Virus record (IMG/VR): IMGVR_UViG_3300025082_000007
Location: 1-64,000 of that record
DNA length: 64,000 nucleotides
Direction: 5' to 3' (one strand)
DNA from: a virus
Shown here: positions 9,187 through 56,064 of the stretch, piece by piece
How positions within the stretch are numbered: position 1 is the first letter of the stretch
Layout of the letters: every line of letters starts with the position of its first letter
Made by a program: the position numbers and the translations under genes
Notes under the pieces: generated by a model
The model's input: only the letters and a program-made list of their open reading frames with translations
The model's database searches: none
Told to the model about the DNA's origin: nothing

Positions 9187-9198
9187 GGATGAAGAGTG

Positions 9199-9771: not shown

Positions 9772-9823
9772 CCTGTCTTTCCCTTAGAATGGGGGCTTGA
9801 GTAACCCCTGGAGGGACAGGAAG

Positions 9824-10252
9824 ATGAGTGAGAAGCAATGCTTCAAGTGCGGTGAGGTCAAGTCCCTCGCTGAGTTCTACAAGCATAAGGCAATGGCGGA
9901 CGGGCATCTCGGGAAGTGCAAGGACTGCACCAAGCGAGATGTTCGTCTCCACCGGAGGGGCAATGAGAGCGTCCGTGAGTATGACCGGCTTCGCAGCAAG
10001 CGGCCAGAACGGATGGCGGCATCTCGGGCCAATACGGAGCGGTGGCAAAAGGCTCACCCCATTGCGTACAAAGCGCAGACGGCGGTTGGCAACGCGGTGC
10101 GGGATGGACGGCTGGAGAAGGGGCCGTGTGAGGTTTGCCAAAGCACTTCACGCATCCACGCGCACCATGATGATTATTCAAAACCGCTGGAGGTGAGGTG
10201 GCTATGCGCGAAGCACCACCATCGGCATCACGCCTCGGCGGACACTGGTTAG
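9824..10252 (+). CDS. Zinc-finger/HNH-like phage protein
   Basis: 142 residues from MSEKQCFKCGEV, preceded by GGGACAGGAAG. Two metal sites can be seen: CFKCGEV with CKDCTK at the front, and CEVCQS followed by IHAHHDDY and LCAKHHHRHH at the end. The C-terminal group has the treble-clef HNH look. Proteins of this layout are common in phages of Proteobacteria and are usually annotated as HNH nucleases, with no tested activity for most. Confidence 0.6.
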   Translation: MSEKQCFKCGEVKSLAEFYKHKAMADGHLGKCKDCTKRDVRLHRRGNESVREYDRLRSKRPERMAASRANTERWQKAHPIAYKAQTAVGNAVRDGRLEKGPCEVCQSTSRIHAHHDDYSKPLEVRWLCAKHHHRHHASADTG

Positions 10253-10731
10253 ACCCAGGTTGGGTCCGCCGACGCCTTCACCTGATAGGTGCCGAGGATG
10301 CCACCGAGGGGATGTTGGCGCCCATCAAGGCACGCCAGAACCCTCTCCTCCGTCTCCAGAAAAACGGCCTATTGAGCGAGGCTCACCTCTGGGCTGCCGA
10401 TGAGATCGAGGAGGTCTTCGAGGCTATCTCAGCCAGCTACTTTCCTCGTCGCCCCCACCTGGGTGGAGTTAAGGTCAGCGGCTCCCCTGTCGAGCGGCTG
10501 CCGGCGTCAATGCTTGAGCCATTCAATAATTACCGCCCTTGGGCAGAAGAGACTGGGTCAATGGAAATCACGCCCGAGGTGACCGTCCTGGGCGCCACGC
10601 TCCATGCCGTGGTGGACGGCTGGCGCCTCAGGGACATCGAGCGGCTGTGCGAGAAGGCGCAGGGTCACGGGTATGCTGGTGCTATGCTTCAAGATAGCCT
10701 CGACAGGTACGTTGAGCATGCGGGATGGTAG
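10204..10731 (+). CDS. Unrecognised phage protein, possible regulator
   Basis: 175 residues; the ATG follows GAGGTGAGG, and a GTG two codons upstream is possible. NPLLRLQKNGLLSEAHLWAA and the C-terminal helices (TLHAVVDGWRLRDIERLCEK) suggest an all-helical DNA-binding protein, loosely like alphaproteobacterial DUF6456-type regulators. It is the last gene before the promoter of the next operon, where late regulators often lie. I cannot assign a family with certainty. Confidence 0.45.
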   Translation: MREAPPSASRLGGHWLDPGWVRRRLHLIGAEDATEGMLAPIKARQNPLLRLQKNGLLSEAHLWAADEIEEVFEAISASYFPRRPHLGGVKVSGSPVERLPASMLEPFNNYRPWAEETGSMEITPEVTVLGATLHAVVDGWRLRDIERLCEKAQGHGYAGAMLQDSLDRYVEHAGW

Positions 10732-10774
10732 GGGTGGGCAAATTTCCCCACCTGTAACCTATTGATATTACAGA

Positions 10775-10793
10775 CTTTTCCTTATGGGAAAAA
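10775..10793. promoter_or_regulatory. Small hairpin upstream of early promoter
   Basis: TTTTCC and GGAAAA pair around a short loop. It could be the weak terminator of the replication operon or a second protein site; the sequence does not decide. Confidence 0.3.
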
Positions 10794-10827
10794 TAGGTCA
10801 AAAAAATGCCTAATTATCCCATTTAGA

Positions 10828-10858
10828 TGTTGCAACGATGCGACATCGTCCCTATATA
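10828..10858 (+). promoter_or_regulatory. Rightward early promoter with 18-bp palindromic operator
   Basis: The operator TGTTGCAACGATGCGACA fills 10828-10845. TTGCAA within it serves as -35, 17 bases ahead of TATATA (10853-10858) as -10. A repressor on the palindrome would block polymerase. It drives the small early genes that follow. Confidence 0.7.
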
Positions 10859-10882
10859 TGAGGGGCACAAGGGAGAGAGAAC

Positions 10883-11167
10883 ATGACCACCGCGAAATTC
10901 CAGACCGAAACCAAATACGGCTCGCCGCTCAACAACATCAAGATCAATGGCCGCGAGTACACCGTCAGCCGCATCACCGAGATCACGAAGCAGGCCGATG
11001 GCTACACCTTCACTGGGCTGGCCAACGGTTCGCCTTTTGAAATTTACGGCGGCAAGAAGTCTGGCGGAGCGGCCAACGAGTGGTTCGTTGAGTGGCCGGC
11101 AGCTTTCTCCAGCTACATCCGTGCGACCAGCTTGGTCGATGCCGTGAAGCTGATTGAGGGCGCATAG
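10883..11167 (+). CDS. Small early protein, unknown function
   Basis: 94 residues, preceded by GGGAGAGAGAAC. I see no known motif; the middle TGLANGSPFEIYGGKKSGGA suggests a small beta-rich fold. It is the first gene after the operator-controlled promoter, so it is probably made very early. No catalytic residues can be assigned. Confidence 0.55.
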   Translation: MTTAKFQTETKYGSPLNNIKINGREYTVSRITEITKQADGYTFTGLANGSPFEIYGGKKSGGAANEWFVEWPAAFSSYIRATSLVDAVKLIEGA

Positions 11168-11205: not shown

Positions 11206-11502
11206 ATGACCGACCTCAACATGAATGATCCGAAAATTGAACTGGAACTCGCCCGTCGAGGCGCCGCCAACTGGTACGCGGACAGCACGAGCAGCCTCGA
11301 CCTGATGATGAGCCGTATCCAGAAGACCAGGGACAAGCTGGAGACTTTGGGTGATGACCCTGAGGCCGCGCTGGCTATCATGATGGCTATTTCCGAGTTG
11401 ATGGATGAGTTCCATGTGGCCTCTGGCAAGCTGAACGTGGCCTTCGGTATCGATACCGTTGCTCGCCTCGCCCAGTCTCATGCGAGGGTCCAGGCCGCGT
11501 AG
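11206..11502 (+). CDS. Small helical early protein, unknown function
   Basis: 98 residues, almost all predicted helix (LDLMMSRIQKTRDKLETLGD, then ALAIMMAISELMDEFHVAS). It carries the shared leader AACCCAGGAGACAGA before its ATG. No family recognised. Cotranscribed with its neighbours. Confidence 0.55.
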   Translation: MTDLNMNDPKIELELARRGAANWYADSTSSLDLMMSRIQKTRDKLETLGDDPEAALAIMMAISELMDEFHVASGKLNVAFGIDTVARLAQSHARVQAA

Positions 11503-11536
11503 CCTGCCCACCAATCTCAACCCAGGAGACAGATAG

Positions 11537-11749
11537 ATGACTACAGTAAAATGGAACGGTTACGGATGGCAGGCATCAACCAAGCGACAGGTCCGCATCA
11601 AGGCCGGCGTTCGACCTTATGGCGGACGGCTCGTTGATGTGGTCAGTGAAAACGAGCGCGAGGTCACGGTGATACCGCCGCATCCGGTGAAGCCTATCGA
11701 GCGGGTGTATCAGAGGGATGAGATTGAGGAACTGGGGGGCCGGAAATAA
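11537..11749 (+). CDS. Small basic early protein, unknown function
   Basis: 70 residues, rich in Lys/Arg (STKRQVRIKAGVRPYGGRLV), with an acidic C-terminal helix. The leader before the ATG (AACCCAGGAGACAGA) is nearly the same as that of the gene before it. No family recognised. Confidence 0.5.
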   Translation: MTTVKWNGYGWQASTKRQVRIKAGVRPYGGRLVDVVSENEREVTVIPPHPVKPIERVYQRDEIEELGGRK

Positions 11750-11772
11750 GGGCTTCTTTCCCGAAAGAAAAG

Positions 11773-11803
11773 TGTTGCATCTTTGCTCCAAAGCTCCTAT
11801 ATA
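11773..11803 (+). promoter_or_regulatory. Second rightward early promoter with degenerate operator
   Basis: TGTTGCATCTTTGCTCCA fits the operator consensus at 12 of its 14 fixed bases. TTGCAT acts as -35 and TATATA, 17 bases on, as -10: the same geometry as the promoter near 10.83 kb. Confidence 0.6.
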
Positions 11804-11824
11804 GAAGGGGAAGGAGAAACCCAG

Positions 11825-12067
11825 ATGACCGCACCCATCCGCAAGATCATTCACACCACGGGCGCCCCCGACCGCAGCACCGCCCGCATGATCCGTCGCT
11901 CCGGCAAGATCACCTCCGCCACCCTGGAATGTGGCCATGAGTTGTGGGCCAACGCGGGCGATGTCAGGCAGGGCAAAATGTATTGCTTCGATTGTTTTTA
12001 CAACAAGCCCGTCACGGGCAACGCCCAGATCACTCTCGACATGCTTGGCCTGACCGCCGTCCAGTAA
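11825..12067 (+). CDS. Small zinc-ribbon-like protein
   Basis: 80 residues. CGHELWANAGDVRQGKMYC followed by FDC gives a CxH...CxxC set suited to binding zinc. First gene after the promoter near 11.8 kb; GGAGAAACCCAG precedes its start. Such short ribbons are common among phage and plasmid early genes. Role unknown. Confidence 0.55.
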   Translation: MTAPIRKIIHTTGAPDRSTARMIRRSGKITSATLECGHELWANAGDVRQGKMYCFDCFYNKPVTGNAQITLDMLGLTAVQ

Positions 12068-12091
12068 CCACCCCAACCCAGGAGCCATCTG

Positions 12092-13345
12092 ATGCAGTAC
12101 AACATCCCCCGCGCCAACCTCAGCCACCTGCGGAAGCGGATCGAGAAGATCTCCCGCAAGGCCGAGAAGCTGGGCTGCGAGCCCGTCACCCTGACCGAAG
12201 GCGAGACCTTCACCACCGTGAAGCTGCCGGGTCAGGATGCTTTCAACACCACCTCGACTGAGAAGATCGAAGAGGCCTCCCGCAGCGAGGGCGCCTCCAT
12301 CCGCACCTACACCAAGGTCACGGTCGAGGGTGCCGCACCGCAGATCAAGGGCTGGACCCTGATCGCCGCGCTCGATCACAAGAGCCACTCCGAGACCATC
12401 GTCAAGACCACCGTCGATGATCTGCCGGTCAAGTACCGCCAGCACGACGGTTCCTGCGACCACTGCCAGACCAAACGTCGCCGCAACGACACCTACGTCC
12501 TGCGGAACGATGCCGGCGAGACCAAGGCCGTTGGCCGGCAGTGCCTGAAAGACTTCCTGGGCTACAACGATCCCCAGAAGGTTGCTGAGTGGCAGACCTT
12601 TCACAAGATCGTGGACATCTGCCGCGATGCCGAGGAGTGGGGTTGGGCCGGCGAGCGTGTCAATCCCGAGATTGGCCTGGAGCGGTTCCTGGCCCAGACC
12701 AGCGCCTGCGTCCGCAAGAATGGCTGGGTCTCTCGCGGCGCTGCCAGGAACATTCCTGAGTACACTGCCACTGCTGACACCGCCTGGGGCCAGTTCTTCC
12801 TCTCCCCGGAGCAGGTTGCCAAGGGCATCAAGATCCATACCGATGAGAAGGACATCGAGGTTGCTCGCGATACCATCCAGCACATCGCCTCCCGCGAAGT
12901 CCGCAGCGATTTCGATCACAACCTCAGCGTCGCGCTCAAGGATGACTTCGTGACCTACGCCACTGCCGGGATCGTCGCCTCAGCCATCAGCGTCTACCAG
13001 CGTTGGCAGGAAGCGGAGATCAAGAAGGCAGTCGAAGCCGCCCGCCGCGAAGCCCGCCCCAGCAGCCACATCGGAGAGGCCAAGCAACGCCTGGACCTGG
13101 GCGAGGTCACCCTGGTTCACAAGTCCTGGCATGACAGCCAGTGGGGCAGCACCGCGCTGCATCGCTTCGAGGACGCCGATGGCAACGTGATCATCTGGTG
13201 GGCCTCGGGCTCTGGTTCTGCCGCTGACGTGCTGGAGCAAGGTGACACCGCCCATGTGACGGCGACCGTCAAAAAGCATGACGACTACAAGGGCACGCCG
13301 CAGACGGTGGTGACCCGCCTGACGATCCACGAGGAGGCGGCTTAG
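12092..13345 (+). CDS. Large conserved phage/plasmid protein with Cys cluster
   Basis: 417 residues. A zinc-like site CDHCQTKRRRNDTYVL with a later Cys (VGRQCLKDFLGY) lies at about residues 127-160. A helical centre follows, and the end (SAADVLEQGDTAHVTATVKK, then DDYKGTPQTVVTRL) looks like an OB-type nucleic acid-binding fold. Proteins of this design occur on plasmids and large phages beside antirestriction genes, with no assigned biochemical role. A DNA or RNA transaction is plausible. Confidence 0.55.
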   Translation: MQYNIPRANLSHLRKRIEKISRKAEKLGCEPVTLTEGETFTTVKLPGQDAFNTTSTEKIEEASRSEGASIRTYTKVTVEGAAPQIKGWTLIAALDHKSHSETIVKTTVDDLPVKYRQHDGSCDHCQTKRRRNDTYVLRNDAGETKAVGRQCLKDFLGYNDPQKVAEWQTFHKIVDICRDAEEWGWAGERVNPEIGLERFLAQTSACVRKNGWVSRGAARNIPEYTATADTAWGQFFLSPEQVAKGIKIHTDEKDIEVARDTIQHIASREVRSDFDHNLSVALKDDFVTYATAGIVASAISVYQRWQEAEIKKAVEAARREARPSSHIGEAKQRLDLGEVTLVHKSWHDSQWGSTALHRFEDADGNVIIWWASGSGSAADVLEQGDTAHVTATVKKHDDYKGTPQTVVTRLTIHEEAA

Positions 13346-33381: not shown

Positions 33382-34251
33382 TTATGCGGCCTTTTCGAGC
33401 GTCTCTTGCAGCCCGTCGAGGTAGTCAGCAGCCTTCTGGGCAGCAGCAGCGGCGCGGAAGATGGCCTTCTTGTCGCCCTTCAGGACTTCGAGCCAGGAGG
33501 CGAGGTAGGAGGCGTGGTCCTCGCGGGGCTCGATCTCGATGCCCAGCGTGGCGGAGAGGAAGGAAGCGGTGATCTCAGCCACCAACTCCTCCTTGGCGTA
33601 GTCAGGGTCACCCTTGGCAGCGCCGAAGAGCCGGTCGAGGCGTTTTTTGGCGCCGGTCCAGTGGGCCAACTCGTGCAGGGTGGTGCCGTAGTAGGAGACG
33701 GCATCCTCGAACTGATCGAACTCAGGGAGTTGGATCTCATCCGTCGAGGGGCGGTAGTAGGCCCGGTCGCCACCGTGTTGGATGACGGCCTGGGTGTTGG
33801 TGACATAGGCCTCGATGTCATCCAGGCGGGCGTCGCCGTTCTGGCTCTCGGCAGCCTCAGGATAGAAGCGTGCCGGCAGCCCCTCGATCTGCTCGACGTT
33901 GAAGACCGAGTAGAAGCGCAGCAGCGGGATCTGCTTGGCCTCTTCCTCGCCGGCATCGTTGGTCTCGGTGATGCGAAGCTGTTTGAAGAAGACGACCATC
34001 GAGCCCTTCTCGCCCTTCTTGACCTGACCGCCAAGCTTCTTGGCCTGATTGTAGGTCATCCAGGTCGGGGCGGAGCGGCCCTGGAGCCACAGCAGCAGGA
34101 CGTTGATGCCGTTGTAGCGTTGGCCGTTGAAGCGGACTGGTAGTCCGCCGAAGCCGCTGACTGACCAGGGGCGCTGCCAGGGAGCCGCACCGGCTTCGAG
34201 GGAGGCGATAATCTGGTCGGTGACTTTCTGGTAGGCATCGATCTTGGGCAT
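33382..34251 (-). CDS. ardC: ArdC-type antirestriction protein
   Basis: 289 residues from MPKIDAYQKVTDQIIASLEA, preceded by GGAGACAGTG. Residues 1-130 form the ssDNA-binding DUF1738/ArdC-N domain (APWQRPWSVSGFGGLPVRFN, YNGINVLLLW, MTYNQAKKLGGQVKKGEKGS). The C-terminal domain is a zinc peptidase-like fold with HELAH at 193-197 and a later Glu in ELVAEITASFL. ArdC proteins protect incoming DNA from type I restriction. Its own operator-promoter would let it be made as soon as DNA enters, before repressor builds up. Confidence 0.85.
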   Translation of the reverse strand: MPKIDAYQKVTDQIIASLEAGAAPWQRPWSVSGFGGLPVRFNGQRYNGINVLLLWLQGRSAPTWMTYNQAKKLGGQVKKGEKGSMVVFFKQLRITETNDAGEEEAKQIPLLRFYSVFNVEQIEGLPARFYPEAAESQNGDARLDDIEAYVTNTQAVIQHGGDRAYYRPSTDEIQLPEFDQFEDAVSYYGTTLHELAHWTGAKKRLDRLFGAAKGDPDYAKEELVAEITASFLSATLGIEIEPREDHASYLASWLEVLKGDKKAIFRAAAAAQKAADYLDGLQETLEKAA

Positions 34252-34285
34252 CACTGTCTCCGGGTTCGAGTGCGTGTCTGGTTGG

Positions 34286-34314
34286 TATGTAGCAACGATG
34301 CGACACGAGTTCAA
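34286..34314 (-). promoter_or_regulatory. Leftward promoter of ardC with operator
   Basis: TTGAAC, 17 bases, TACATA reading leftward, with TGTAGCAACGATGCGACA (34288-34305, top strand) in the spacer. The -35 lies in the last codons of the upstream gene. Confidence 0.75.
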
Positions 34315-34532
34315 GCTTTTTCTTTCATCTCCATGCGCTGGCGAAAGGTCTGGGCCTCCCAGTGGTCTTCGTGTTTCGTGCAGTAGCGCATCATCTTGAC
34401 ATCGAAGGCCGTCACAGCATCGTGCCGGCAAGGGCGGGCACGGTTGCCATTTGAGTTGGTGACTACGGCGCAGCAGCCGCCATGCTCTGCGCGAGCGCGA
34501 CGGGCGGCGTAGAGGGCGAGGCCACGGCGCAT
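34311..34532 (-). CDS. Small Cys/His-rich early protein, unknown function
   Basis: 73 residues. Basic front (MRRGLALYAARRARAEHG), then CC, PCRHDAVTAFD and RYCTKHEDHW, a set of Cys and His residues that could bind zinc. The start abuts the previous gene's stop. No family recognised. Confidence 0.5.
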   Translation of the reverse strand: MRRGLALYAARRARAEHGGCCAVVTNSNGNRARPCRHDAVTAFDVKMMRYCTKHEDHWEAQTFRQRMEMKEKA

Positions 34533-35242: not shown

Positions 35243-36319
35243 ATGGCGACGACACAACATGGGGTTAACCACCCTCTTGCGGTCAAAGTCTGGTCAACGA
35301 AGTTGATGCGGGAGGCCCTGAAAGAGACCTTCGCATCACGCTTCATGGGTCGATCCAAGGACAGTCTCATCTACGTCAAGGACGAACTGACCAAGGGTCC
35401 AGGTGACCGCATCACATCCGGCCTCCGTGTCCAACTCTCTGGAGCCGGTATCGCGGGTGACGGAACCCTCGAAGGAAACGAGGAAGCTCTCGTCACCTAC
35501 AACGACAACCTGTACATCGATCAGCTACGCCACGCCGTCCGAAGCGATGGACGCATGTCGGAGCAACGCATCCCTTTCAGCATCCGCGAGGAGAGCATGG
35601 ATGGGCTGCGTGATTGGTGGGCAGACCGTATCGACACGGCGTTTTTCAATCAGATTGCCGGCAACACGGGTCAAGGCGACACTCGTTATACCGGCCTTCA
35701 GGCAGCCATCGCGGCCTCCACTGACACGGGCAACACCCGTATCATCTTCGGCCCCGGCGCTGCCACGACTGAGAACTCCCTGTCGGCCTCGGAAAGTGCA
35801 TCGGCCAACTTCCAACTCACCATGATCGACAAAGCCATCAACATCGCCAAGACGGCGAGCCCGTTGATCCGGCCCCTGGTCGTAAACGGTGCGAAGAAGT
35901 ATGTCGCGTTCCTACATCCCAACCAAGTTTACAACTTGAGGACGGATGCCACGACAGCCCGTGTCACTTGGTACGACACGCAGCGTGCCCTGGTGGAAGG
36001 CGGCAAGACCGATAGCCCAATCTACAACGGCGCTCTAGGTGAGTACAACGGTGTCATCCTTCACGAAAGCACCCGCGTGCCCCTTGCGCCTTCCACAACC
36101 ACCGTGCGTCGAGCCGTCTTCTGCGGCGCCCAGGCGGCATGTTTTGCAACCGGGCGTGAGAACCCCACTGACCAACAGATGACGTGGGTTGAAGAACTGT
36201 TCGATTACGGCAACCAGCTAGGCGTCAGCGCCGGCCTCATCTTTGGTCTCAAGAAGTCGCGGTACAATGCCATCGACTTCGGGACCGTTGTGATGGCATC
36301 GCACGCTGAAGCCCCGTAG
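35243..36319 (+). CDS. Major capsid protein, N4-gp56 family
   Basis: 358 residues, a usual length for the family. The N-terminal third carries the family pattern: STKLMREALKETFASRFMGR, DSLIYVKDELTKGPGDRITS, GLRVQLSGAGIAGDGTLEGN, YNDNLYIDQLRHAV. The fold is the HK97-like coat fold, forming the shell. Late segments (KKYVAFLHPNQVYNLRTDA, ARVTWYDTQRALVEG) also fit. It is separated from the scaffold gene by the antisense island, so it needs its own promoter or read-through; I do not see a strong promoter. Confidence 0.88.
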   Translation: MATTQHGVNHPLAVKVWSTKLMREALKETFASRFMGRSKDSLIYVKDELTKGPGDRITSGLRVQLSGAGIAGDGTLEGNEEALVTYNDNLYIDQLRHAVRSDGRMSEQRIPFSIREESMDGLRDWWADRIDTAFFNQIAGNTGQGDTRYTGLQAAIAASTDTGNTRIIFGPGAATTENSLSASESASANFQLTMIDKAINIAKTASPLIRPLVVNGAKKYVAFLHPNQVYNLRTDATTARVTWYDTQRALVEGGKTDSPIYNGALGEYNGVILHESTRVPLAPSTTTVRRAVFCGAQAACFATGRENPTDQQMTWVEELFDYGNQLGVSAGLIFGLKKSRYNAIDFGTVVMASHAEAP

Positions 36320-36330
36320 GAGGTGATGAG

Positions 36331-36792
36331 ATGACCACATTCACCGCATCCCTCCACCAAAGCCAGCCTCGTGAAATCCACGCTGGGCTCCAGACTGCAA
36401 GCTCCAAGCTCACCACATCGGCCACCGGCACTGCCGGCTCCGTTTTTTTGGTGGCCAAGGTGCCCAATCAGGCGCACATCAAGGATTTCTGGCTGTTTGC
36501 CGACGATGCCGGCGCGGACCAGACTTGGTCCGTGGGTATCGTGCGTCCCGAGGGGTCGACCTCAGGGTCGATCACCATCCTGGCAGCCGTTCTCTTGGCG
36601 GCGACCTCGACCTCGGGTGGCTCGACTACCATCCGGCCTGCCGGCGGTTTGCTGCCGTACAAGATATCCATCTCCGACGAGGCCCTGCCTCGATGGGCAT
36701 GGATTGCCGTCACGGCAGCGGCAGCCATCTCGGCTTCTGCTGACCTACGCTTTGTCGCCACCTACGACATGGACGACGACAACATGGGTTAG
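36331..36792 (+). CDS. Accessory head protein (probable decoration)
   Basis: 153 residues, beta-rich and full of Thr/Ser/Ala (SKLTTSATGTAGSVFLVAKV). It follows the coat gene by 11 bases, the usual place of a head decoration or stabilising protein. No family motif recognised, so the role rests on position. Confidence 0.5.
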   Translation: MTTFTASLHQSQPREIHAGLQTASSKLTTSATGTAGSVFLVAKVPNQAHIKDFWLFADDAGADQTWSVGIVRPEGSTSGSITILAAVLLAATSTSGGSTTIRPAGGLLPYKISISDEALPRWAWIAVTAAAAISASADLRFVATYDMDDDNMG

Positions 36793-36838: not shown

Positions 36839-36845
36839 ACGAGTT

Positions 36846-36907
36846 GGGAGGGGTGGCGTTCGCGCCCCTCCCACTCCCTGCCCCGCCTGCGTGCGGGGTT
36901 TATTTTT
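36846..36907 (+). terminator. Tandem hairpins with terminator after head genes
   Basis: First stem: GGGAGGGG with CCCCTCCC. Second: CCCCGC, loop CTGCGT, GCGGGG, then TTTATTTTT. The second is a standard intrinsic terminator; it lies 18 bases before the next gene. It would strongly favour coat production over the cassette that follows. Confidence 0.8.
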
Positions 36908-36925: not shown

Positions 36926-38431
36926 ATGGCAGATACAGCGGCTAAGGGGTATCGCTACCAGTCAGCCAACGAGAGGCTGGAGATGGCCAAAGAGACCCAC
37001 TCCAAGGCCATGGACAGTTCTGACCCCAAAGAGGTTCACGAGCTTATGACGCGGGCTGAGAACCTCTACAACAGCATCCTCAACAAGAGGTTCGATGAGC
37101 CCATCCTCCTCTATTTCATGGGCCTGCTCTACTGCCAGAAGGGCTTCCACGGTCTGGGGGCTCTCATCCTCCACCGCTGTCTCGAAAGTCTGCCAGACCT
37201 GGGTGATGCCTGGAACAATTTGGGCATCTGTTACTATAGAGAGTACAGAATCGATCAGGCGGCTGCCTGCTTCGAGAAGGCGGCGGAGCTATTACCAGAT
37301 GGTCGGGCTGACATCTACGCCAACATGGCGGGTCTCTTCATCAACCGGAACACGCCCGAGAAATGTATTGAGTGGGCCAACAAATCCTTGATCGAGGAGC
37401 CCGGTCATCCCATCGGAAAGTGGAACAAGGCTCTTGCCCAACTGGAGCTTCAGGACTGGGCCAACGGGTGGGACAACTACGAGGCTCGCCTCGATCCAGG
37501 GTCGAACTGTCCCATCGCACTGCGGAACTATGAGGATGAGCCCGGCCAGATGACGCCCTGGTGGGACGGCAAGAGCGACGGCCTCGTGGTCATCCATGGC
37601 GAGCAGGGTGTGGGCGATGAGGTGATGTTCGCAACGTGCATCCCGGAGCTTGCGGCAAAGCATCCCGGCGTCGAGTGGGTGGTCGAAAGCACACCCATCA
37701 TGCATGACCTCCTGGAAAGGAGCTTCGCAGGTCTACCAACCGTGACGGTCTTCGGCACGCACATGGTCGATGGCAAGGAGTGGCGCAACGGGCGCAAGGT
37801 GGACTACAAGGTCGCCCTCGGCTCTCTTCCCAGGACCATTCGCCGGAAGGATGAAGACTTCCCCGGTACGCCAATCCTCATCCCCAGCCCGAAGCTGCAA
37901 CGCGAGTTCCGCAGGAAGTTCGACAAGATGCGGGACGGGCCGAAGGTTGGCATCGCATGGCAAGGGGGTGTCCAAAAGACGCGGATCGATCTTCGTTCCG
38001 TCATGCCCGACGATCTCATCCCCATCCTCACCCAGGACGCTGACTTCATTTCCCTCCAGTACACGGACGATGCCCAGCGCATCCTGCAGGAGTTCGAGAA
38101 GGACACCGGCCTCCACCTTCATCACTGGAAACATGGTGCCGGCCCAGACGACATGGAGGCCAAGGCGGCGCTGATCAGCGAACTCGACTTGGTCATCTCC
38201 GTCTGCCAGTCAGCCATCCACATCGGTGGTGCCGTTGGCACGCCGACATGGGTTATGGTTCCCTCGGGAGCCGCGTGGCGATATGGTATCAAGGGCAACA
38301 TGCCCTGGTACAACTCGGTCGACCTCAAGCGCCAGAAGGAAGGCGACCCGTGGGCCATCATCATCGGACAGGTGGCGGCGGAGTTCGCGTCATGGCGTCA
38401 GAATGAATGGAACGACCGGGGGGCTGCGTGA
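36926..38431 (+). CDS. TPR protein with C-terminal glycosyltransferase domain
   Basis: 501 residues from MADTAAKGYRYQSANERLEM. Residues about 45-190 are tetratricopeptide repeats (DAWNNLGICYYREYRIDQAA, ADIYANMAGLFINRNTPEKC). Residues 215-500 resemble a GT-B transferase like the heptosyl/O-GlcNAc groups: GEQGVGDEVMFAT, KVGIAWQGGVQKTRIDLRSV, then ISELDLVISVCQSAIHIGGA with PTWVMVPSGAAWR. Such fusions transfer a sugar to protein or glycan chosen by the TPR part. First gene of a five-gene overlapping cassette, after a terminator. Confidence 0.75.
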   Translation: MADTAAKGYRYQSANERLEMAKETHSKAMDSSDPKEVHELMTRAENLYNSILNKRFDEPILLYFMGLLYCQKGFHGLGALILHRCLESLPDLGDAWNNLGICYYREYRIDQAAACFEKAAELLPDGRADIYANMAGLFINRNTPEKCIEWANKSLIEEPGHPIGKWNKALAQLELQDWANGWDNYEARLDPGSNCPIALRNYEDEPGQMTPWWDGKSDGLVVIHGEQGVGDEVMFATCIPELAAKHPGVEWVVESTPIMHDLLERSFAGLPTVTVFGTHMVDGKEWRNGRKVDYKVALGSLPRTIRRKDEDFPGTPILIPSPKLQREFRRKFDKMRDGPKVGIAWQGGVQKTRIDLRSVMPDDLIPILTQDADFISLQYTDDAQRILQEFEKDTGLHLHHWKHGAGPDDMEAKAALISELDLVISVCQSAIHIGGAVGTPTWVMVPSGAAWRYGIKGNMPWYNSVDLKRQKEGDPWAIIIGQVAAEFASWRQNEWNDRGAA

Positions 38432-38874
38432 TGGATGATGCAAGACACATGAGGGGAGCCCTCAAGTTTGCTGAGGAGCATGGCAAGTGTCGGCGGCGGA
38501 AAATAGCTTGCGTACTTGTTAATGCCGAGGGTGTGGAGATGGCCGGTGGGGCCAATGGCCCTCCTGGGTGGTCATGCCTCGACAAGCCTTGTCCCGATGC
38601 AGATGTCCCGGCGGGCGATGGTGCGTATCGGCGTGTGAGGTGCCATGGCATCCATGCCGAGGTGGATGCTCTCATCGATCTAAAGTCGGAGCCTTACCCC
38701 ATCGATGACATCCACACCATCTATTGCACCAAAGCCCCCTGTCTCGCCTGTGCGGAGATGCTTTTGATGACGCCGGCACAACGCCTCGTCTTCGCCGTCT
38801 GGCCCAACGACAAGTCAGGCCTTGAAGCCTGGAGCGATGCCGGGCGTGCCTACTCCTGTCTGGGGGATGGTTGA
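38431..38874 (+). CDS. Cytidine/dCMP deaminase-like protein
   Basis: 147 residues; the ATG overlaps the previous stop. The zinc deaminase signature is present: His75-Ala-Glu77 in CHGIHAEVDA and Cys104-x2-Cys107 in KAPCLACAEM. NGPPGWSCLDKPCPD resembles the substrate loop of dCMP deaminases. It could supply dUMP, or act on a modified base or sugar nucleotide given its neighbours, two glycosyltransferases and a methyltransferase. The length suits a single-domain enzyme. Confidence 0.78.
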   Translation: MDDARHMRGALKFAEEHGKCRRRKIACVLVNAEGVEMAGGANGPPGWSCLDKPCPDADVPAGDGAYRRVRCHGIHAEVDALIDLKSEPYPIDDIHTIYCTKAPCLACAEMLLMTPAQRLVFAVWPNDKSGLEAWSDAGRAYSCLGDG

Positions 38875-39416
38875 TGTTGATCACCGACGAGTATCGTAGG
38901 CTCAACGCTGAACTCCACGACATCAACCCGGCGTATGGCGTCAAGGGACAGGAGCAGGTGCCTTTCGTCATGGAACTTTTCTCCGCCTTCGATGCGACGA
39001 CGATCCTCGACTACGGTTGCGGCAAGGGGAAACTAAAGATGTCGCTCATGGCATCCGGCTTCCCCGAGGTGGCTGCCAGGATGCAGGAGTATGACCCCGC
39101 CATCCCCGGCAAGGACCACGCTCCAGACCCGGCAGACATCGTGATCTGCTCAGACGTGTTGGAGCATGTCGAGCCGGTTTGCCTCGAAGAGGTGCTGGAT
39201 GATCTCCAGCGCCTGACGAGGCTTGCGGCCTTCGCCCTGATCTCCACGATCCCTGCGGAGAAGGAACTGACGGACGGGCGCAACACGCACCTCATCATCG
39301 AGCCGTCACAGTGGTGGATGCCGAAGCTCCAGGAACGCTTCGACCTGATGAGATTTGATGCCGGGGAACGGGAGACGTTCAGATGCTTTCTGACACCGTA
39401 TGCCGCGTCTTCATAG
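38874..39416 (+). CDS. SAM-dependent methyltransferase-like protein
   Basis: 180 residues from an ATG overlapping the previous stop. Motif I appears as ILDYGCGKGKLK (about 44-55), with an acidic loop YDPAIPG (73-79) and IVICSDVLEHVE (89-100) as motif II/III, the class I methyltransferase pattern. The substrate cannot be told. C-terminal HLIIEPSQWWMPKLQERFDL resembles small-molecule or sugar methyltransferases more than DNA ones. Overlaps the next gene by 34 bases. Confidence 0.75.
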   Translation: MLITDEYRRLNAELHDINPAYGVKGQEQVPFVMELFSAFDATTILDYGCGKGKLKMSLMASGFPEVAARMQEYDPAIPGKDHAPDPADIVICSDVLEHVEPVCLEEVLDDLQRLTRLAAFALISTIPAEKELTDGRNTHLIIEPSQWWMPKLQERFDLMRFDAGERETFRCFLTPYAASS

Positions 39417-40099
39417 GCTACGACGAACGGCAGCACGATGCCTATGAGGTGTGCCGGCACACATTGCTGAAGCATGCCTCGATCCCTCTCCTGGTCGAGC
39501 AAATCGATCAGACGGCACTCCGACACGCCGGCCTCTACCGTCGCGCCCCGCATCCAGGGACGTGGATCGACACGGTTGACGGCAAGAGTTTCTCCTCCCA
39601 GTTCAGCTTCACCCGCTTCCTCGTGCCGGCGTTGTGCCAGTTCAAGGGGTGGGCTCTCTACATGGATTGTGACTTCCTCTGGCGCCGGGATGTGAGGGCG
39701 ATCTTCGATCTGGTTGAAGAGAACCGGAACAAGTCAGCCTTGGTGGTGCATCACGACTTCAAGCCCAGCGAGATGGTCAAGATGGATGGCAAGGAACAGA
39801 CCGTCTACACCAACAAGAACTGGTCGAGCCTGATGCTCCTCAACAACAAGGCTTGCAATGCGCTGACGCCAGACGTGGTCAACACACGTCCTGGTCAGTG
39901 GTTACACACCTTTCGCTGGGTGGGAGCGATCTACAGCTTAGGTTCGATTGATGGACGGTGGAACTGGATACCGGGCCACTCGACGCACACTGAACCGGGT
40001 GCCGTCCATTTTACCAAAGGCGTCCCCTCGATGGAGGGGTATGCAGATCAACCCTACGCGGACGAATGGTTCGCAGCACTTGAAGAGGTGAGACCATGA
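39383..40099 (+). CDS. Glycosyltransferase-like protein (GT-A, DxD)
   Basis: 238 residues. RVFIGYDERQHDAYEVC opens a Rossmann-like fold; ALYMDCDFLWRRDVRAIFDL carries the Asp95-x-Asp97 metal motif of GT-A enzymes, resembling GT8-type proteins. HFTKGVPSME near the end fits the late His of that group. It would add a sugar from a nucleotide sugar to glycan or protein. Overlaps neighbours on both sides by 34 and 4 bases. Confidence 0.75.
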   Translation: MLSDTVCRVFIGYDERQHDAYEVCRHTLLKHASIPLLVEQIDQTALRHAGLYRRAPHPGTWIDTVDGKSFSSQFSFTRFLVPALCQFKGWALYMDCDFLWRRDVRAIFDLVEENRNKSALVVHHDFKPSEMVKMDGKEQTVYTNKNWSSLMLLNNKACNALTPDVVNTRPGQWLHTFRWVGAIYSLGSIDGRWNWIPGHSTHTEPGAVHFTKGVPSMEGYADQPYADEWFAALEEVRP

Positions 40100-41052
40100 C
40101 AGCCCTTGAAAACACGATCACCGAGAGGATAGACCGCATTACCAAGATGTCGGCGGACTATTATGTGCCGGCACCCCCCATCCCTCGATCCTGCAAGATC
40201 GAACTGACGGGGCGCTGCAACTTCGCCTGTGCCTTCTGTGCCCGGTCACTTCTTCTTCGAGATCAGAAAGACATGGACCGGGCGCTCTACTCCCGGCTCA
40301 TCAGAGAGCTTCATGATGCCGGCGTTCATGACCTCGGGTTCTTCCACCTGGGTGAAAGTTTCATGGTCTCCTGGCTGCCTGAGGCCATCCAAGAGGCGAA
40401 CGATGTCGGTTTTGGCCTGACCTTCCTGACGACCAACGGCTCCCTCTCGACGGGCAAGCGGGTCGAGGCTTGCATGGAGGCAGGACTGCAATCCCTGAAG
40501 TTCTCTCTCAACTACGCCGACAAGCAGCAGTTCGTGGACATCGCCAGGGTCAAGGGCGACCTCTTCGATGTGATGGTCAACAACATCAAGGATGCTTACC
40601 GGGTGCGCGAGGCCGGCGGCTACAGGTGCCAACTCTCGGCCTCCTATATCACCTACGATGAGGATCAAGGTGAGCGCATGCAGGCGCTGATCTATGAACT
40701 CGATCCCTTCCTCGATGAGATCTACGAACTCCCCCTCTATAATCAGGCTGACTTGATGACGGAGGAGGAGCAGTCGAGGGGCTGGGTGCCGTCCGCCGGC
40801 AACCGTGGCCGTAAGGATATGATGCGGGCTCCGCTCCCGTGCTGGGTGCTATTCACGGAAGCGCACATCAGTTGGCAGGGGCAGCTTGCGGCCTGCTGCT
40901 TTGATCACAACATCACCTTCGATATGGGTAATCTGAAAGAGATGTCTTTCAAGGAAGCTTGGCACTCAGAAGCCTTTCAAAAACTCCGGGCTGCTAGTCT
41001 GGCCAAAGACGTGAGGGGAACACCATGCGAAAATTGTGTAGTTGGAGGTTAG
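40096..41052 (+). CDS. Radical SAM protein with SPASM-type C-terminus
   Basis: 318 residues. The [4Fe-4S] motif is Cys41-x3-Cys45-x2-Cys48 in LTGRCNFACAFCAR. The barrel continues with LGFFHLGES, FLTTNGSL and LQSLKFSLNYA. A C-terminal group, Cys249, Cys267/Cys268 and Cys311-x2-Cys314, suggests an auxiliary cluster of the SPASM kind, used in peptide or protein modification and in some sugar chemistry. The end GNLKEMSFKEAWHSEAFQKL is typical of SPASM enzymes. Last gene of the cassette; its substrate is unknown. Confidence 0.85.
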   Translation: MTALENTITERIDRITKMSADYYVPAPPIPRSCKIELTGRCNFACAFCARSLLLRDQKDMDRALYSRLIRELHDAGVHDLGFFHLGESFMVSWLPEAIQEANDVGFGLTFLTTNGSLSTGKRVEACMEAGLQSLKFSLNYADKQQFVDIARVKGDLFDVMVNNIKDAYRVREAGGYRCQLSASYITYDEDQGERMQALIYELDPFLDEIYELPLYNQADLMTEEEQSRGWVPSAGNRGRKDMMRAPLPCWVLFTEAHISWQGQLAACCFDHNITFDMGNLKEMSFKEAWHSEAFQKLRAASLAKDVRGTPCENCVVGG

Positions 41053-41164: not shown

Positions 41165-41335
41165 ATGGTCCTCAGGTTACCTCAAATGGTTGCCGGCGCT
41201 AGCGGTGGTGGGCTTTGGAACGGTGCCCTTGGTGCTGCCGCTCCTCTGACACCCCCAATGTTCGGTGATAGTGTTTTCACAGGGCCTTACACCGCCCCAG
41301 GTGATGTCAGCGCCCTTTCCGAGGCCCGGAGTTAG
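41165..41335 (+). CDS. Small hypothetical protein before adaptor genes
   Basis: 56 residues, Gly/Ala/Pro-rich (LPQMVAGASGGGLWNGALGA). AAGGAG lies six bases before the ATG; an in-frame ATG two codons upstream is too close to it. It shares MVAGAS with the N-terminus of the next product, so the two may be related. About 110 bases between the radical SAM gene and this one are non-coding. Confidence 0.5.
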   Translation: MVLRLPQMVAGASGGGLWNGALGAAAPLTPPMFGDSVFTGPYTAPGDVSALSEARS

Positions 41336-41337
41336 TC

Positions 41338-41778
41338 ATGGCCTACCAGCCCCAACGCCTTCCTATGATGGTTGCTGGCGCATCGCCCGCCCAGCCTGTC
41401 GGGATCGATGTTGGCCCTCAGCCCCTTACCCCAGTGCAGGAAGAGTTTTGGAGGACGTTTGGAACACCCCCCAAGCGAGTTTCAAACTATCCTGGGGAGC
41501 CTCTCAGCAGAAGCTATCAGGTTGATCCCGATGTTCCTCCCGAGGCCTTCCACGATTATATCCGCAGGCAACACCCAGACATGATGGGTGATTTTTACCG
41601 GGGGGAAGAGGCTTCTGGGGCTAGCTTCTTGGACACAATCCGCAAGAGGGCTGAGTTGTATACCCCCTTCCTGGCTGATGGTGAAGACCCCAGGATGGTT
41701 GCCCTGAGAAAGCGTTTGTTCATGATCGAAATGCAGAAGAAGCTCATGGGGCGTGCCCCAGGTGAGTTCGATATTTGA
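41338..41778 (+). CDS. Structural-region hypothetical protein
   Basis: 146 residues. A proline-rich front (LPMMVAGASPAQPVGIDVGP) leads to a helical C-terminal half (SFLDTIRKRAELYTPFLADG, RMVALRKRLFMIEMQKKLMG). It begins two bases after the previous stop. Probably a minor virion or assembly protein by position. Confidence 0.5.
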   Translation: MAYQPQRLPMMVAGASPAQPVGIDVGPQPLTPVQEEFWRTFGTPPKRVSNYPGEPLSRSYQVDPDVPPEAFHDYIRRQHPDMMGDFYRGEEASGASFLDTIRKRAELYTPFLADGEDPRMVALRKRLFMIEMQKKLMGRAPGEFDI

Positions 41779-42358: not shown

Positions 42359-43024
42359 ATGTCCACTTATCTCACGATGCGGACCCGCATCCAAAACGAA
42401 CTCGTTCGAACCGACATCGACGCCCGCATTAACGAGGCAATAGTCACAGCCATCCAGCACTGGGAGCGTGAACGGTTCTTTTTCAACGAGGCTCGAACCA
42501 CCCTGGTCACGGTCGCGGACCAGGAGAACTACTCGACCAGTGACGGCGTGCCGACAGGTCTTGTCGGTATCGATACGCTGAAGATCACGGTCAACGGAAA
42601 CCTCTATCCGCTGACACTTCGATCCTACGCAGAGATAGAAAACAAAAAGACAAACTTGAGCTTTACCGGGTGGCCATACGAGTACGCTTACTACCAGGAA
42701 GATCTCTGGCCCTACCCCATTCCCAACGCTTCCCTCACCCTCGTCATGTCGTACATCGCAAGGCTGCCTGAGATCAGTCTTTCGGCCACCAATGCCGCGA
42801 CCAATGCTTGGATGGTGGATGCCGAGGCTCTAATCAGGTCTCGCGCCAAGGCGATCATCAAGATTGATGTGGGAGAGAACGAGAGTTCAAAAACCGAGGC
42901 GATGATGATGCTGCAGAAAGGGTCGGCCTCCCTTTCGTTGATGGAAGAAAGCATCAAGGTCAAACTCCAGGCAGAGGTCACGCGGCGGGTTCAGACTGGA
43001 CGCATCACTCCAACGCAGTTCTGA
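42359..43024 (+). CDS. Head-tail adaptor protein (gp4-like)
   Basis: 221 residues. The helical N-terminus (MRTRIQNELVRTDIDARINE, AIVTAIQHWERERFFFNEAR) and later WPYEYAYYQEDLWPYPIPNA are typical of podovirus adaptors that sit under the P22-type portal. They close the packaged head and receive the tail hub. It is followed three bases later by the hub-like gene, as in related phages. Confidence 0.65.
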   Translation: MSTYLTMRTRIQNELVRTDIDARINEAIVTAIQHWERERFFFNEARTTLVTVADQENYSTSDGVPTGLVGIDTLKITVNGNLYPLTLRSYAEIENKKTNLSFTGWPYEYAYYQEDLWPYPIPNASLTLVMSYIARLPEISLSATNAATNAWMVDAEALIRSRAKAIIKIDVGENESSKTEAMMMLQKGSASLSLMEESIKVKLQAEVTRRVQTGRITPTQF

Positions 43025-43026
43025 TC

Positions 43027-44583
43027 ATGGCGACCTTCCCGTCAGACAAAGCCTCGTTTCCCTTCGCGGCATGGCTGCCAGACCAGCCAGCCCTGGAAAA
43101 CCCAGGCTCGACGCAGGCATCCAACTGCCGGCCCGCTGCCATTGGCTACAGACCCATGCCAGACATCAAGGCCTTCACGACGGCAGCCCTCGATGCGTTC
43201 GCTCAAGGTGCTATCAGTGTCACGGACAGGGTTGGTGCTGTCACAACCTATATTGGAGACGCTGCAAAACTTTATGATGTGACATCGAGTGCAGCGACTG
43301 ATGTCTCCATTGCCGGCGGCTACTCGACGGCGTCAGACGGTATTTGGGACTTTGCCAAATGGGCGAACACAGTGATTGCGACCAACCTTTCAGAAGAAGT
43401 TCAAACCATCACCATTGGGGGTGCGAACTTTGCCAACCTTATCACCTCGACCGACACGCCTTCCGCCAGATACGTCGCTGTCGAGGATAATGGGTTCGTC
43501 ATCCTTGGGAACATTTCTGACGAGAGTGGTGTCGCGCCGACGAGAGTTCGTTGGTCGGCCCAAAATGATCCTACGGACTTCGATGAAGATGCAGCCACCC
43601 TTGCTGACAAACAGGATCTCCAGGGCGGCGGTGGTCACATACAAGGGCTCCTAGATGGTGGTGATTTTGTCACCATCTTCCGGGAACTTTCTATACATCG
43701 CATGCAGTTTGTTGGACCTCCAATTATCTTCCAAATCGATCAGGTTGTGACGGAGCTTGGCCTTCGAACCCCAGGCGCGGCGGCTGCCTTTGGACGCCTG
43801 CACTACTTCCTGGCCTCTTCGGGTTTCTACGTTTTTGATGGGGCTCAGGCTCTCAACATCGGCAGTGAGCAGGTTGACCGTCTCTTCTGGGACGCGCAGA
43901 GTGGGGCCAATACTGATGCCGTTGATGTGGCGAATATCCATCGTGTTCGATGCACGGTGGACGCGGATTCTCATCAGGTGTTCTGGTCCTACCCCACATC
44001 GGACGCCCCGGCAAACGCCTGTGATCGTATCCTTTGCTACGACTGGGTCGTTAAAAGGTGGACCCTCATCTCCATCAACACCCAGCTCATCTTCCGTCAC
44101 CTTTCCGAGGGATATACCCTCGAAGGCCTCGATGCCGTCAGCGCAGACATCGACAATTTCCCCTCTGCCGGGGCTGAGATTTCTCTCGACAGTAAGGCCT
44201 GGATGGGTGGAGCCATCAAGCTTGGTGCCGTCGATACGGCCAACAAGCTGGCCACCTTCGAGGGTGACAACCTCGCTGCCGTGATGGCAACGGGCGAGTT
44301 CAACCTCGCCGCCTCAGCAGGCTCTCCTGGCTATCGATCAAAGCTCACGGAGGTCATCAGCCTCGTTGACGGGGGCACGCCAACCATGCGGATTGGTTAT
44401 CGCAACCTTCCAGGTGACAACATCACATGGTCCTCAGCGGTTACCCAAAACGCTTCCGGCTATCATCCCTTCCTGATCGACAGCCGCTACTTCCGCTCCG
44501 AGGTCACCGTGCCGGCGGCTTCAACCTGGACGCATGCCATAGGGATCAGTGCGGCTGACTTCACGGTGACGAGCAAGAACTGA
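43027..44583 (+). CDS. Tail hub/DNA stabilisation protein (P22 gp10-like)
   Basis: 518 residues. QASNCRPAAIGYRPMPDIKA at the front is a common opening of podovirus hub proteins that report on the genome end. Repeated beta-propeller-like strands follow (TVIATNLSEEVQTI, YVAVEDNGFVILGNISDESG, FLASSGFYVFDGAQALNIGS). It would extend the head-to-tail channel below the adaptor. Assignment rests on order and overall look. Confidence 0.6.
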   Translation: MATFPSDKASFPFAAWLPDQPALENPGSTQASNCRPAAIGYRPMPDIKAFTTAALDAFAQGAISVTDRVGAVTTYIGDAAKLYDVTSSAATDVSIAGGYSTASDGIWDFAKWANTVIATNLSEEVQTITIGGANFANLITSTDTPSARYVAVEDNGFVILGNISDESGVAPTRVRWSAQNDPTDFDEDAATLADKQDLQGGGGHIQGLLDGGDFVTIFRELSIHRMQFVGPPIIFQIDQVVTELGLRTPGAAAAFGRLHYFLASSGFYVFDGAQALNIGSEQVDRLFWDAQSGANTDAVDVANIHRVRCTVDADSHQVFWSYPTSDAPANACDRILCYDWVVKRWTLISINTQLIFRHLSEGYTLEGLDAVSADIDNFPSAGAEISLDSKAWMGGAIKLGAVDTANKLATFEGDNLAAVMATGEFNLAASAGSPGYRSKLTEVISLVDGGTPTMRIGYRNLPGDNITWSSAVTQNASGYHPFLIDSRYFRSEVTVPAASTWTHAIGISAADFTVTSKN

Positions 44584-55437: not shown

Positions 55438-56064
55438 CTATAGTTCTGAGCTGCCCTCTCCAGACGGATCTGTATTGCTGAATGTAGCAGTTCTTCTTTT
55501 CTTCCTGAGCCCAGGTCTATGCCCTGGTCTAACGCACCCAACCTCACCCTCTACAAAGCCGTGGTCGGGATCACGTGATCCCAATTTTACTAACTCTTCA
55601 TCAGTGTGCTTGTATGTAGCAGCTATATCTAGCTCAGGCTCAGAGCCGTCAACCATTGTCATCGCTTCGACGCGCATGAAATGAGGCTGACGAACACTCT
55701 TGATCTTCCCTTCATTACGCAACATGATCTCCAGGCGAGCTAGCGCACACCAAGCTACTTGAGCAGCATGAAGCACATCAAAATCTTCTGAGTTCTGCTT
55801 CATCCCTCCTGTATCGTCTAGCATATGTCCTAAGAGAGCGTCAGAATAACGTTCGATACCGTTCTCCACCTCCAAGTAGCCCATGTCGCCAGAGCTAGTA
55901 TTATACTTTTTCACAGCACACTCATTTGAAACTATAGCCACTTCCCGGAGTGCTAGAGGAAAGCGAGCTACACAGCCGGTATATATCGGCACCTTCTCAC
56001 CATCCTTCTTGGACTTGCTATCGTCTTTAGTGGGGCCGTAGTTATCTAAATGCCTATCTTTCAT
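55438..56064 (-). CDS. DUF5664 (dATP/dGTP diphosphohydrolase-like) protein
   Basis: 208 residues. GEKVPIYTGCVARFPLALRE, VEVENG-type strand, IERYSDALLGHMLD and DFDVLHAAQVAWCALARLEI fit the DUF5664 pattern, a MazG-related nucleotide pyrophosphohydrolase-like family. It could tune dATP/dGTP during phage replication. The C-terminal 60 residues are basic and hold the 16-bp palindrome in frame as SRDPD. ATG overlaps the previous stop (ATGA). Confidence 0.65.
   Translation of the reverse strand: MKDRHLDNYGPTKDDSKSKKDGEKVPIYTGCVARFPLALREVAIVSNECAVKKYNTSSGDMGYLEVENGIERYSDALLGHMLDDTGGMKQNSEDFDVLHAAQVAWCALARLEIMLRNEGKIKSVRQPHFMRVEAMTMVDGSEPELDIAATYKHTDEELVKLGSRDPDHGFVEGEVGCVRPGHRPGLRKKRRTATFSNTDPSGEGSSEL
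55567..55582. repeat. 16-bp palindrome, copy 1 of 4
   Basis: GGGATCACGTGATCCC, perfect palindrome, inside the DUF5664 gene where it encodes GSRDPD. Confidence 0.9.

Follow-up and report, generated by a model that had tools for sequence, protein, structure and literature searches.

What do five enzyme genes do in the midst of the virion genes of a podovirus? The window, i.e. the whole 64,000-nt stretch of DNA analysed here, comes from the 70.8-kb record of a short-tailed virus of bacteria (IMG/VR record IMGVR_UViG_3300025082_000007). A preliminary description of it proposed that the cassette builds and attaches a modified sugar, or modifies a virion protein. We examined the gene set and its borders, the occupancy of the same position in related phages and the architecture of each enzyme, and weighed the proposal against three alternatives.

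Gene content and borders of the cassette

The cassette consists of five intact genes on the + strand (36926-41052; Table 1). Neighboring genes overlap by 1, 1, 34 and 4 nt, in gene order, and identical overlaps were found in a second phage, L009, which carries all five genes in the same order at 59-74% identity. These findings support the view that the genes form one translational unit, and answer the call of the preliminary description to look for the same gene order in other phages. In a comparison including L009, the five genes displayed 0.18-0.30 substitutions per site at codon positions 1+2 compared to 0.41-0.57 at position 3, indicating that all five proteins are under selection.

Table 1. 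Positions of the cassette genes and flanking features within the window.
Feature	Position	Strand	Basis and remarks
Major capsid protein (MCP)	35243..36319	+	phrog_334 major head protein, E 1e-77
Small decoration-like virion protein	36331..36792	+	phrog_8455 virion structural protein, weak match, E 8e-4
Tandem hairpin terminator	about 36841..36899	+	Between decoration gene and cassette; two hairpins, then UUUAUUUUU
TPR-GT	36926..38431	+	Start corrected; N-terminal TPR array fused to GT-B glycosyltransferase
dCMP-deaminase-fold protein	38431..38874	+	Start corrected; PF00383, E 8e-14
SAM methyltransferase (MT)	38874..39416	+	Start corrected; Methyltransf_23, phrog_24759, family alignment
GT-A glycosyltransferase, GT8/GT24-like	39383..40099	+	Start corrected; AlphaFold model
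Radical SAM enzyme, C-terminal twitch domain	40096..41052	+	Start corrected; PF04055 (Radical_SAM), PF13186 (SPASM)
Head-tail adaptor, downstream slot border	42359..43024	+	Matches Paracoccus phage KLEP18-1 'putative tail adaptor'
Nozzle/stabilisation-like virion protein	43027..44583	+	phrog_3287 virion structural protein; KLEP18-1 'nozzle' match, E 8e-78

The placement of the cassette between head and tail genes was likewise borne out, with the genes for MCP and the decoration-like protein upstream, and those for the adaptor and the nozzle-like protein downstream. MCP, which is 85% identical in L009, is the anchor of the slot and a possible acceptor of a modification. The decoration-like protein is rich in Ser and Thr (Ser+Thr 22%), and represents a candidate acceptor. 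The terminator said to precede the cassette is present as two hairpins (z = -3.8), and is retained in L009. This conservation is better evidence for the terminator than the pattern scan alone, by which 5 such sites were found in the region compared to 4.4 expected by chance. A promoter scan returned one weak site, which was not above chance.

Occupancy of the slot in related phages

The position of the cassette was surveyed in 58 contigs that were picked solely by a related MCP. Cassette enzymes occupied the interval between MCP and the adaptor in 23 of these contigs, each time including TPR-GT (23/23), while no cassette enzymes were found in this interval in the remaining 35. The median gap between MCP and the adaptor was 3.9 kb for filled slots, compared to 0.78 kb for unfilled ones. 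Thus, the cassette is a modular insert, gained and lost among relatives, at a constant position behind the capsid genes: this slot holds either a TPR-GT-led set or none of these enzymes. In a non-redundant set the slot was filled in 20/44 cases, the most common order being TPRGT-MT-GTA (11), and the radical enzyme was present in 5 of these 20 cassettes. TPR-GT, the methyltransferase and GT-A form the core of the cassette, and the radical enzyme is an optional member that recurs. Relatives of the deaminase were found only in L009-type contigs. Deaminase was rejected as a core member on account of its absence from other filled slots, and is treated as a lineage-specific accessory. The linkage expected by the preliminary description therefore holds for TPR-GT, the methyltransferase and GT-A in most relatives, and extends in some of them to the radical enzyme; the deaminase is not a regular member.

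Loci selected by TPR-GT (11 IMG/VR contigs together with podovirus ctDrO704) placed this enzyme behind MCP in 12/12 cases, with the capsid proteins belonging to two MCP families. Among 80 loci selected by GT-A, one had such an MCP, and the same locus also encoded TPR-GT. Relatives of GT-A and the methyltransferase also occur away from capsid genes, in Stenotrophomonas phage DLP_6 and Caulobacter Ccr phages, and the radical enzyme is repeatedly paired with GT-A in unrelated phages. The annotation of three cultured phages whose MCP is related (Paracoccus KLEP18-1, Microcystis Mae-JY35 and Rhizobium RHph_Y1_10) shows no cassette in the slot. The isolate Roseobacter phage CRP-9 encodes a methyltransferase relative immediately after its coat gene. 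The podovirus ctDrO704 (MW202512.1) shares the order MCP, small virion genes, TPR-GT, methyltransferase, GT-A, adaptor and stabilisation protein. In contrast to the window, it has neither deaminase nor radical enzyme, and bears an HNH endonuclease between TPR-GT and the methyltransferase; its annotated gene names give no pointer to a virion modification system.

We also considered whether the decoration gene is a partner specific to the cassette, since a first HMM detected it in 22/23 filled and 4/35 unfilled slots. This link was dropped: most unfilled slots also contain a divergent gene of similar size, and the pattern mostly reflects subfamily phylogeny. A gene of similar size lies 3' of MCP in most related loci examined, whether the cassette is present or absent.

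A literature search, for which subscription papers were mostly beyond reach, found no description of the cassette. The preliminary description named no described system with exactly this set; the set is one local variant within a broader modular family rather than a unique five-gene system.

Architecture and predicted activities of the enzymes

AlphaFold models agree with the earlier claim of two glycosyltransferases with different folds, namely the GT-B half of TPR-GT and GT-A. TPR-GT displays the GT41-type architecture of a TPR array and a GT-B catalytic domain. Its TPR repeats have Pfam matches, while its GT-B half matches no Pfam family, GT41 included. The best whole-chain structural matches of its model (pLDDT 90.3) were SPINDLY and OGT, albeit with TM-scores of only 0.3-0.36. 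Like TPR-GT, these proteins join a TPR array to a GT-B enzyme; in contrast to them, the catalytic half of TPR-GT, compared as a single domain, is closer to heptosyltransferase II (1psw), its nearest fold, and the Pfam GT41 match is absent. Heptosyltransferase II acts on LPS. Based on its model, TPR-GT is predicted to be an initiating protein glycosyltransferase.

The GT-A protein has no Pfam match and belongs to phrog_28018, itself without an assigned function. Its model (pLDDT 93.7) best matched GlyE, WbbM, XXYLT1, LgtC and UGGT in the PDB, and also resembles glycogenin and LARGE1. GlyE is a GT8 enzyme, and several of the group GlyE, UGGT, glycogenin and LARGE1 act on proteins or glycoproteins. 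Residues D95 and D97 (DxD), H209, G213 and P215 are invariant, such that the protein combines a GT-A fold, a DxD motif and a C-terminal HxxG-type motif, as expected of a GT8/GT24-like enzyme. It is predicted from the model to extend or branch a glycan. The methyltransferase, whose family alignment contains the motif DGRNxHLIxExxxWW, is predicted to be a sugar O-methyltransferase. The zinc motifs HAE and PCxxC and the substrate-loop NGxP of the deaminase are intact, and HAE/PCxxC is kept in the L009-type protein; both fold and motifs are those of a dCMP deaminase, and this activity is accordingly a prediction. The deaminase does not fit the proposed glycan pathway, and the suggestion that it acts on a nucleotide precursor found no support.

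The radical enzyme had been described as a SPASM enzyme. The seven-cysteine SPASM motif, CX9-15GX4C-gap-CX2CX5CX3C-gap-C, corresponds to two auxiliary clusters (PMC6231123). This full motif is absent from the radical enzyme, which has one auxiliary-cluster motif only, C249-X12-G-X4-C267 followed by C311-X2-C314, with the protein ending four residues after. Since it bears a single such motif, we reassign its C-terminal domain as twitch. Both the CxxxCxxC core (C41/C45/C48) and the cysteines for one auxiliary cluster (C249/C267/C268/C311/C314) are retained in 34/34 homologs. The closest solved structure is BtrN, with which the enzyme aligns over both the core and auxiliary domains. BtrN is a twitch radical SAM dehydrogenase of the cyclitol 2-deoxy-scyllo-inosamine. 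The two enzymes share the radical SAM core, a four-cysteine auxiliary-cluster site, a similar size and the lack of an N-terminal peptide-binding domain; in contrast to BtrN, to which its sequence identity is low, the radical enzyme has a conserved CC pair and a different context. Its core starts at about residue 32, and neither of the RiPP-maturase features sought at the locus, an N-terminal element for recognition and a gene for a precursor peptide, was found. We predict that it oxidizes or epimerizes a sugar. It adjoins GT-A, the methyltransferase or TPR-GT in 16/32 loci, an association that requires a minimum of 6 changes on the tree. For the other half of these loci, among them chromosomal copies remote from glycan genes, the models used showed no cassette partner, and thus the substrate of the enzyme need not be a sugar. 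Transfer of function from the radical enzymes of bacterial genomes was rejected, as half of the loci were partnerless and several lay near unrelated genes. Two small conserved proteins encoded just downstream of the radical enzyme share the N-terminal motif LPxMVAGA. They were rejected as its substrates: the motif was found only in window-type phages.

Proposed modification of the virion and its alternatives

The locus is still best read as serving to build a modified sugar on a virion protein or to attach it there; this part of the preliminary description is backed by the capsid-adaptor slot pattern, while the part assigned to the deaminase is not. We consider it probable that the cassette is a virion-modification operon, by which a capsid protein is given an O-methylated, radical-modified glycan; we infer the glycan, its acceptor, the succession of the steps and the chemistry of the radical enzyme. 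The TPR array of TPR-GT would recognize a capsid protein (the decoration protein or MCP), to which TPR-GT would attach the first sugar. The GT8/24-like GT-A would add a further sugar, the methyltransferase would O-methylate the glycan, and the twitch radical SAM enzyme would alter a sugar position, either by two-electron oxidation or by epimerization. The tandem terminator behind the capsid genes would keep enzyme levels below those of the structural proteins.

Hydroxymethylated-base routes need a thymidylate-synthase-family enzyme. The 70.8-kb record, which may be incomplete, contains no PF00303 match, and neither PurZ nor a tyrosine integrase was found in it, which counts against DNA modification and lysogeny. 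A bulk Pfam scan of the record yielded no polysaccharide-export or DNA-hypermodification families. Of the features of seroconversion by temperate phages, flippase and membrane-anchored transferase were likewise not among the Pfam matches.

It is unlikely that the cassette instead alters the surface polysaccharide of the host during infection, e.g. to block superinfection or to keep new particles from sticking to debris. Glycosyltransferase clusters of jumbo cyanophages were interpreted in this way (PMC7824862), one half of TPR-GT resembles an LPS enzyme, and the GT-A/methyltransferase pairs of the Ccr phages and DLP_6 lie away from capsid genes. However, every TPR-GT locus examined is fixed behind MCP, no flippase, polymerase, lipid-carrier enzyme or membrane-anchored transferase was recognized in the cassette or by the bulk Pfam scan, and the record lacks a tyrosine integrase match. 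Somewhat less likely still is direct modification of a protein or peptide by the radical enzyme (RiPP-like or by side-chain oxidation), independent of the transferases. Peptides are the substrates of many SPASM/twitch enzymes (PMC6231123, PMC9012708), and the LPxMVAGA proteins are encoded close by; yet the ~30 residues ahead of the core leave no space for an SkfB-like N-terminal recognition domain, the closest structure is that of a cyclitol dehydrogenase, pairing with GT-A recurs in unrelated phages, and no LPxMVAGA motif lies next to other radical-enzyme loci. Modification of phage DNA bases, with the deaminase acting on a nucleotide and the transferases glycosylating DNA, is very improbable, despite the dCMP-deaminase-fold gene in the cassette and the DNA-glycosylating transferases known from phages (Pyle 2024, as cited in PMC12619734), given the missing thymidylate synthase family protein and PurZ, the absence of the deaminase from other filled slots and a slot that is part of the capsid genes, not the replication genes.

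The proposed virion modification by the cassette has a precedent in mycobacteriophages, in which phage-encoded glycosyltransferases decorate capsid and tail-tube proteins with glycans (Freeman 2023, as cited in PMC12619734 and PMC12691614). Here, too, phage-encoded glycosyltransferases are linked to virion structural genes, and glycosylation of a virion protein is predicted. In contrast to the mycobacteriophage system, the cassette combines a TPR/GT-B enzyme with a methyltransferase and a radical SAM enzyme in a fixed post-capsid slot; no description of such a radical enzyme was found for the former. More tentatively, the slot may hold a swappable capsid-decoration module behind MCP, some versions of which use a twitch radical SAM enzyme for a radical-modified glycan or a directly modified residue on the virion. 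The searchable literature yielded no description of either for any virus.

Beyond actinobacterial phages, the occurrence of particle glycosylation in bacterial viruses and the reasons for it have been sampled poorly, and filled and enzyme-free slots provide natural pairs of related phages for comparison. The slot yields a candidate protein glycosyltransferase family tied to capsid genes, and the cassette offers a testable function for a radical SAM subfamily without a known substrate. As a rule of syntax, a location of enzyme genes between MCP and the adaptor may help to find virion-modifying enzymes in uncultured phages.

Gene content and conservation of the cassette

All five cassette genes were intact, with corrected coordinates, and, in agreement with the preliminary description, they overlap end to start, neighbours sharing 1 to 34 bases at each junction. 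The viral record is 70,755 bp long, possibly incomplete, with the window covering its bases 1-64000, and the module types are those of a podovirus. The decoration gene and the cassette are separated by a pair of conserved hairpins with a T tract. Close to the capsid gene on its upstream side, the opposite strand encodes an ArdC-type antirestriction protein with a zincin domain. Just past the downstream end of the cassette, two consecutive small ORFs have an N-terminal LPxMVAGA motif in common; the pair is conserved at the same place in L009, a second phage with the full gene set, where the first ORF is much longer.

Coordinates of cassette genes (corrected), other window features and related loci
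Feature	Sequence	Position	Strand
Terminase	window	15534	
Portal	window	19114	
ArdC-type antirestriction protein	window	33382-34431	-
Major capsid protein (MCP)	window	35243	
Decoration-like protein	window	36331	
TPR-GT	window	36926-38431	
Deaminase	window	38431-38874	
Methyltransferase (MT)	window	38874-39416	
GT-A	window	39383-40099	
Radical SAM	window	40096-41052	
LPxMVAGA ORF pair	window	41165-41778	
Adaptor	window	42359	
Nozzle-like protein	window	43027	
PF18909 protein	window	55438-56064	-
Apparently split capsid gene	ctDrO704 (L002, MW202512.1)	11265-12962	
MT relative behind coat gene	CRP-9 (L006)	6863-11151	
MT domain in 461-aa ORF, then GT-A	L012	8607-9992	
Radical enzyme, sulfotransferase-like ORF, GT-A	L028	9992-12443	

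Our evidence comes almost entirely from uncultured viral contigs. In those numbered L009-L011 the complete set of five is present, in the order and place seen in the window, with 85% identity in the MCP and 59-74% in the cassette proteins. Because substitutions at codon positions 1 and 2 were far fewer than at position 3 in every cassette gene, all five proteins have been maintained. In the podovirus ctDrO704 the MCP is followed by TPR-GT, an HNH endonuclease, MT and GT-A, the HNH gene inside the cassette being its second. Its capsid gene is apparently split: the first 34 residues were matched at 11265-11366 and the remainder from 11898, and the intervening ORF is annotated as 'icea protein', a layout that would fit interruption by an intron or a mobile endonuclease. 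The cultured Roseobacter phage CRP-9 has a relative of the cassette MT directly behind its coat gene, then a ParB-like ORF (judged by eye) and structural genes; its coat protein gave no match to the window MCP model.

The interval between MCP and adaptor

Searches with TPR-GT yielded 12 distinct loci (11 IMG/VR contigs and ctDrO704). Each of the 12 has the gene behind an MCP, and these MCPs fall into two families without a match to each other. Among 80 control loci picked by GT-A, only 43 of them longer than 10 kb, an MCP of those families was present in one, on a contig that also carries TPR-GT; other MCP families would escape detection. Conversely, 58 contigs picked by MCP alone had both MCP and adaptor. 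Cassette enzymes occupied the interval in 23, always including TPR-GT (23/23), and the profile models through which absence was judged found none there in the other 35. After removal of near-copies (MCP identity of at least 95%), 20 filled slots and 24 without cassette enzymes were retained. Gene order in the 20 was TPRGT-MT-GTA in 11; TPRGT-GTA, TPRGT-MT and TPRGT-MT-SPASM-GTA in two each; and TPRGT-DEAM-MT-GTA-SPASM, TPRGT-SPASM-GTA and TPRGT-SPASM in one each (DEAM, deaminase; SPASM, radical enzyme). Gaps without cassette enzymes mostly measured 0.5-1 kb, room for the small virion gene alone; the two that exceeded 2 kb may contain further genes. The cassette is a modular insert, and TPR-GT is its constant part.

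Virion glycosylation by phage enzymes is already known in mycobacteriophages (cited in PMC12619734 and PMC12691614). A literature search, with subscription papers mostly outside its reach, returned no account of the slot rule, no description of TPR-GT as a constant slot member and no mention of a radical SAM enzyme within a cassette of this kind.

Folds and motifs of the cassette enzymes

The TPR-GT model (pLDDT 90.3) best matched SPINDLY and OGT over the whole chain (TM 0.3-0.36) and heptosyltransferase II as a single domain. The GT-A model (pLDDT 93.7) matched GT8 GlyE, WbbM, XXYLT1, LgtC, UGGT, LARGE1 and glycogenin, and D95, D97 and H209 are invariant. The MT is a small Methyltransf_23 relative with the motif DGRNxHLIxExxxWW. 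In contig L012 a 461-aa ORF has the MT domain at its N-terminus and is followed by GT-A, which suggests that MT and GT-A act together. The deaminase retains intact HAE, PCxxC and NGPP motifs, but relatives of it turned up in L009-type contigs alone.

In the radical enzyme, C249, C267, C268, C311, C314 and three core cysteines were kept in 34/34 homologs. Since the auxiliary spacing CX12GX4C...CX2C, where the protein ends, leaves one auxiliary cluster, the enzyme is of the twitch rather than the SPASM type (PMC6231123; PMC9012708), and its earlier SPASM label does not hold. The closest solved structure, aligned across both domains, is BtrN, which performs a two-electron oxidation of a cyclitol. 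Sugar oxidation is a guess of moderate strength, because similarity networks predict function poorly in this superfamily (PMC6231123). Of 32 radical-enzyme loci, 16 have GT-A, MT or TPR-GT at a distance of up to 6 kb. On the tree this partner label needs 9 changes, of which well-supported branches force 6, and its weak clustering fits repeated shuffling. More distant radical SAM genes come after GT-A genes in several marine contigs. Phage contig L028 has an ORF that by eye resembles a sulfotransferase between radical enzyme and GT-A, followed downstream by genes of tail type; it possibly points to a further sugar modification. Other radical-enzyme loci are chromosomal and near unrelated genes, so a non-sugar substrate is possible. 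Cassette partners are mostly missing beside close relatives of the radical enzyme (~54-63% identity; L129-L134, L138-L142, L152) in genomes of Ferrovibrio, Burkholderiales and others; some of these relatives lie near respiration or stress genes.

A candidate virion glycan pathway

The slot, the gene coupling, the conservation and the enzymes' folds and motifs are established. We consider it probable that the cassette makes a virion glycan, and hold each individual step with much lower confidence. TPR-GT would bind a capsid protein and add the first sugar, GT-A would extend the glycan, MT would methylate it and the radical enzyme may oxidise or epimerise it. Host-surface modification, as proposed for cyanophage clusters (PMC7824862), is improbable: the cassette's position is locked to capsid genes, and no flippase, polymerase or integrase was recognised. 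That the radical enzyme modifies a protein directly is also improbable. DNA modification is unlikely because neither thymidylate synthase nor PurZ was found in the record. A protein encoded near the DNA polymerase has an N-terminal dATP/dGTP diphosphohydrolase domain (PF18909). The simplest acceptor for a virion glycan would be the decoration protein, rich in Ser/Thr (22% Ser+Thr), or the MCP; the genes of both lie directly upstream of the cassette.
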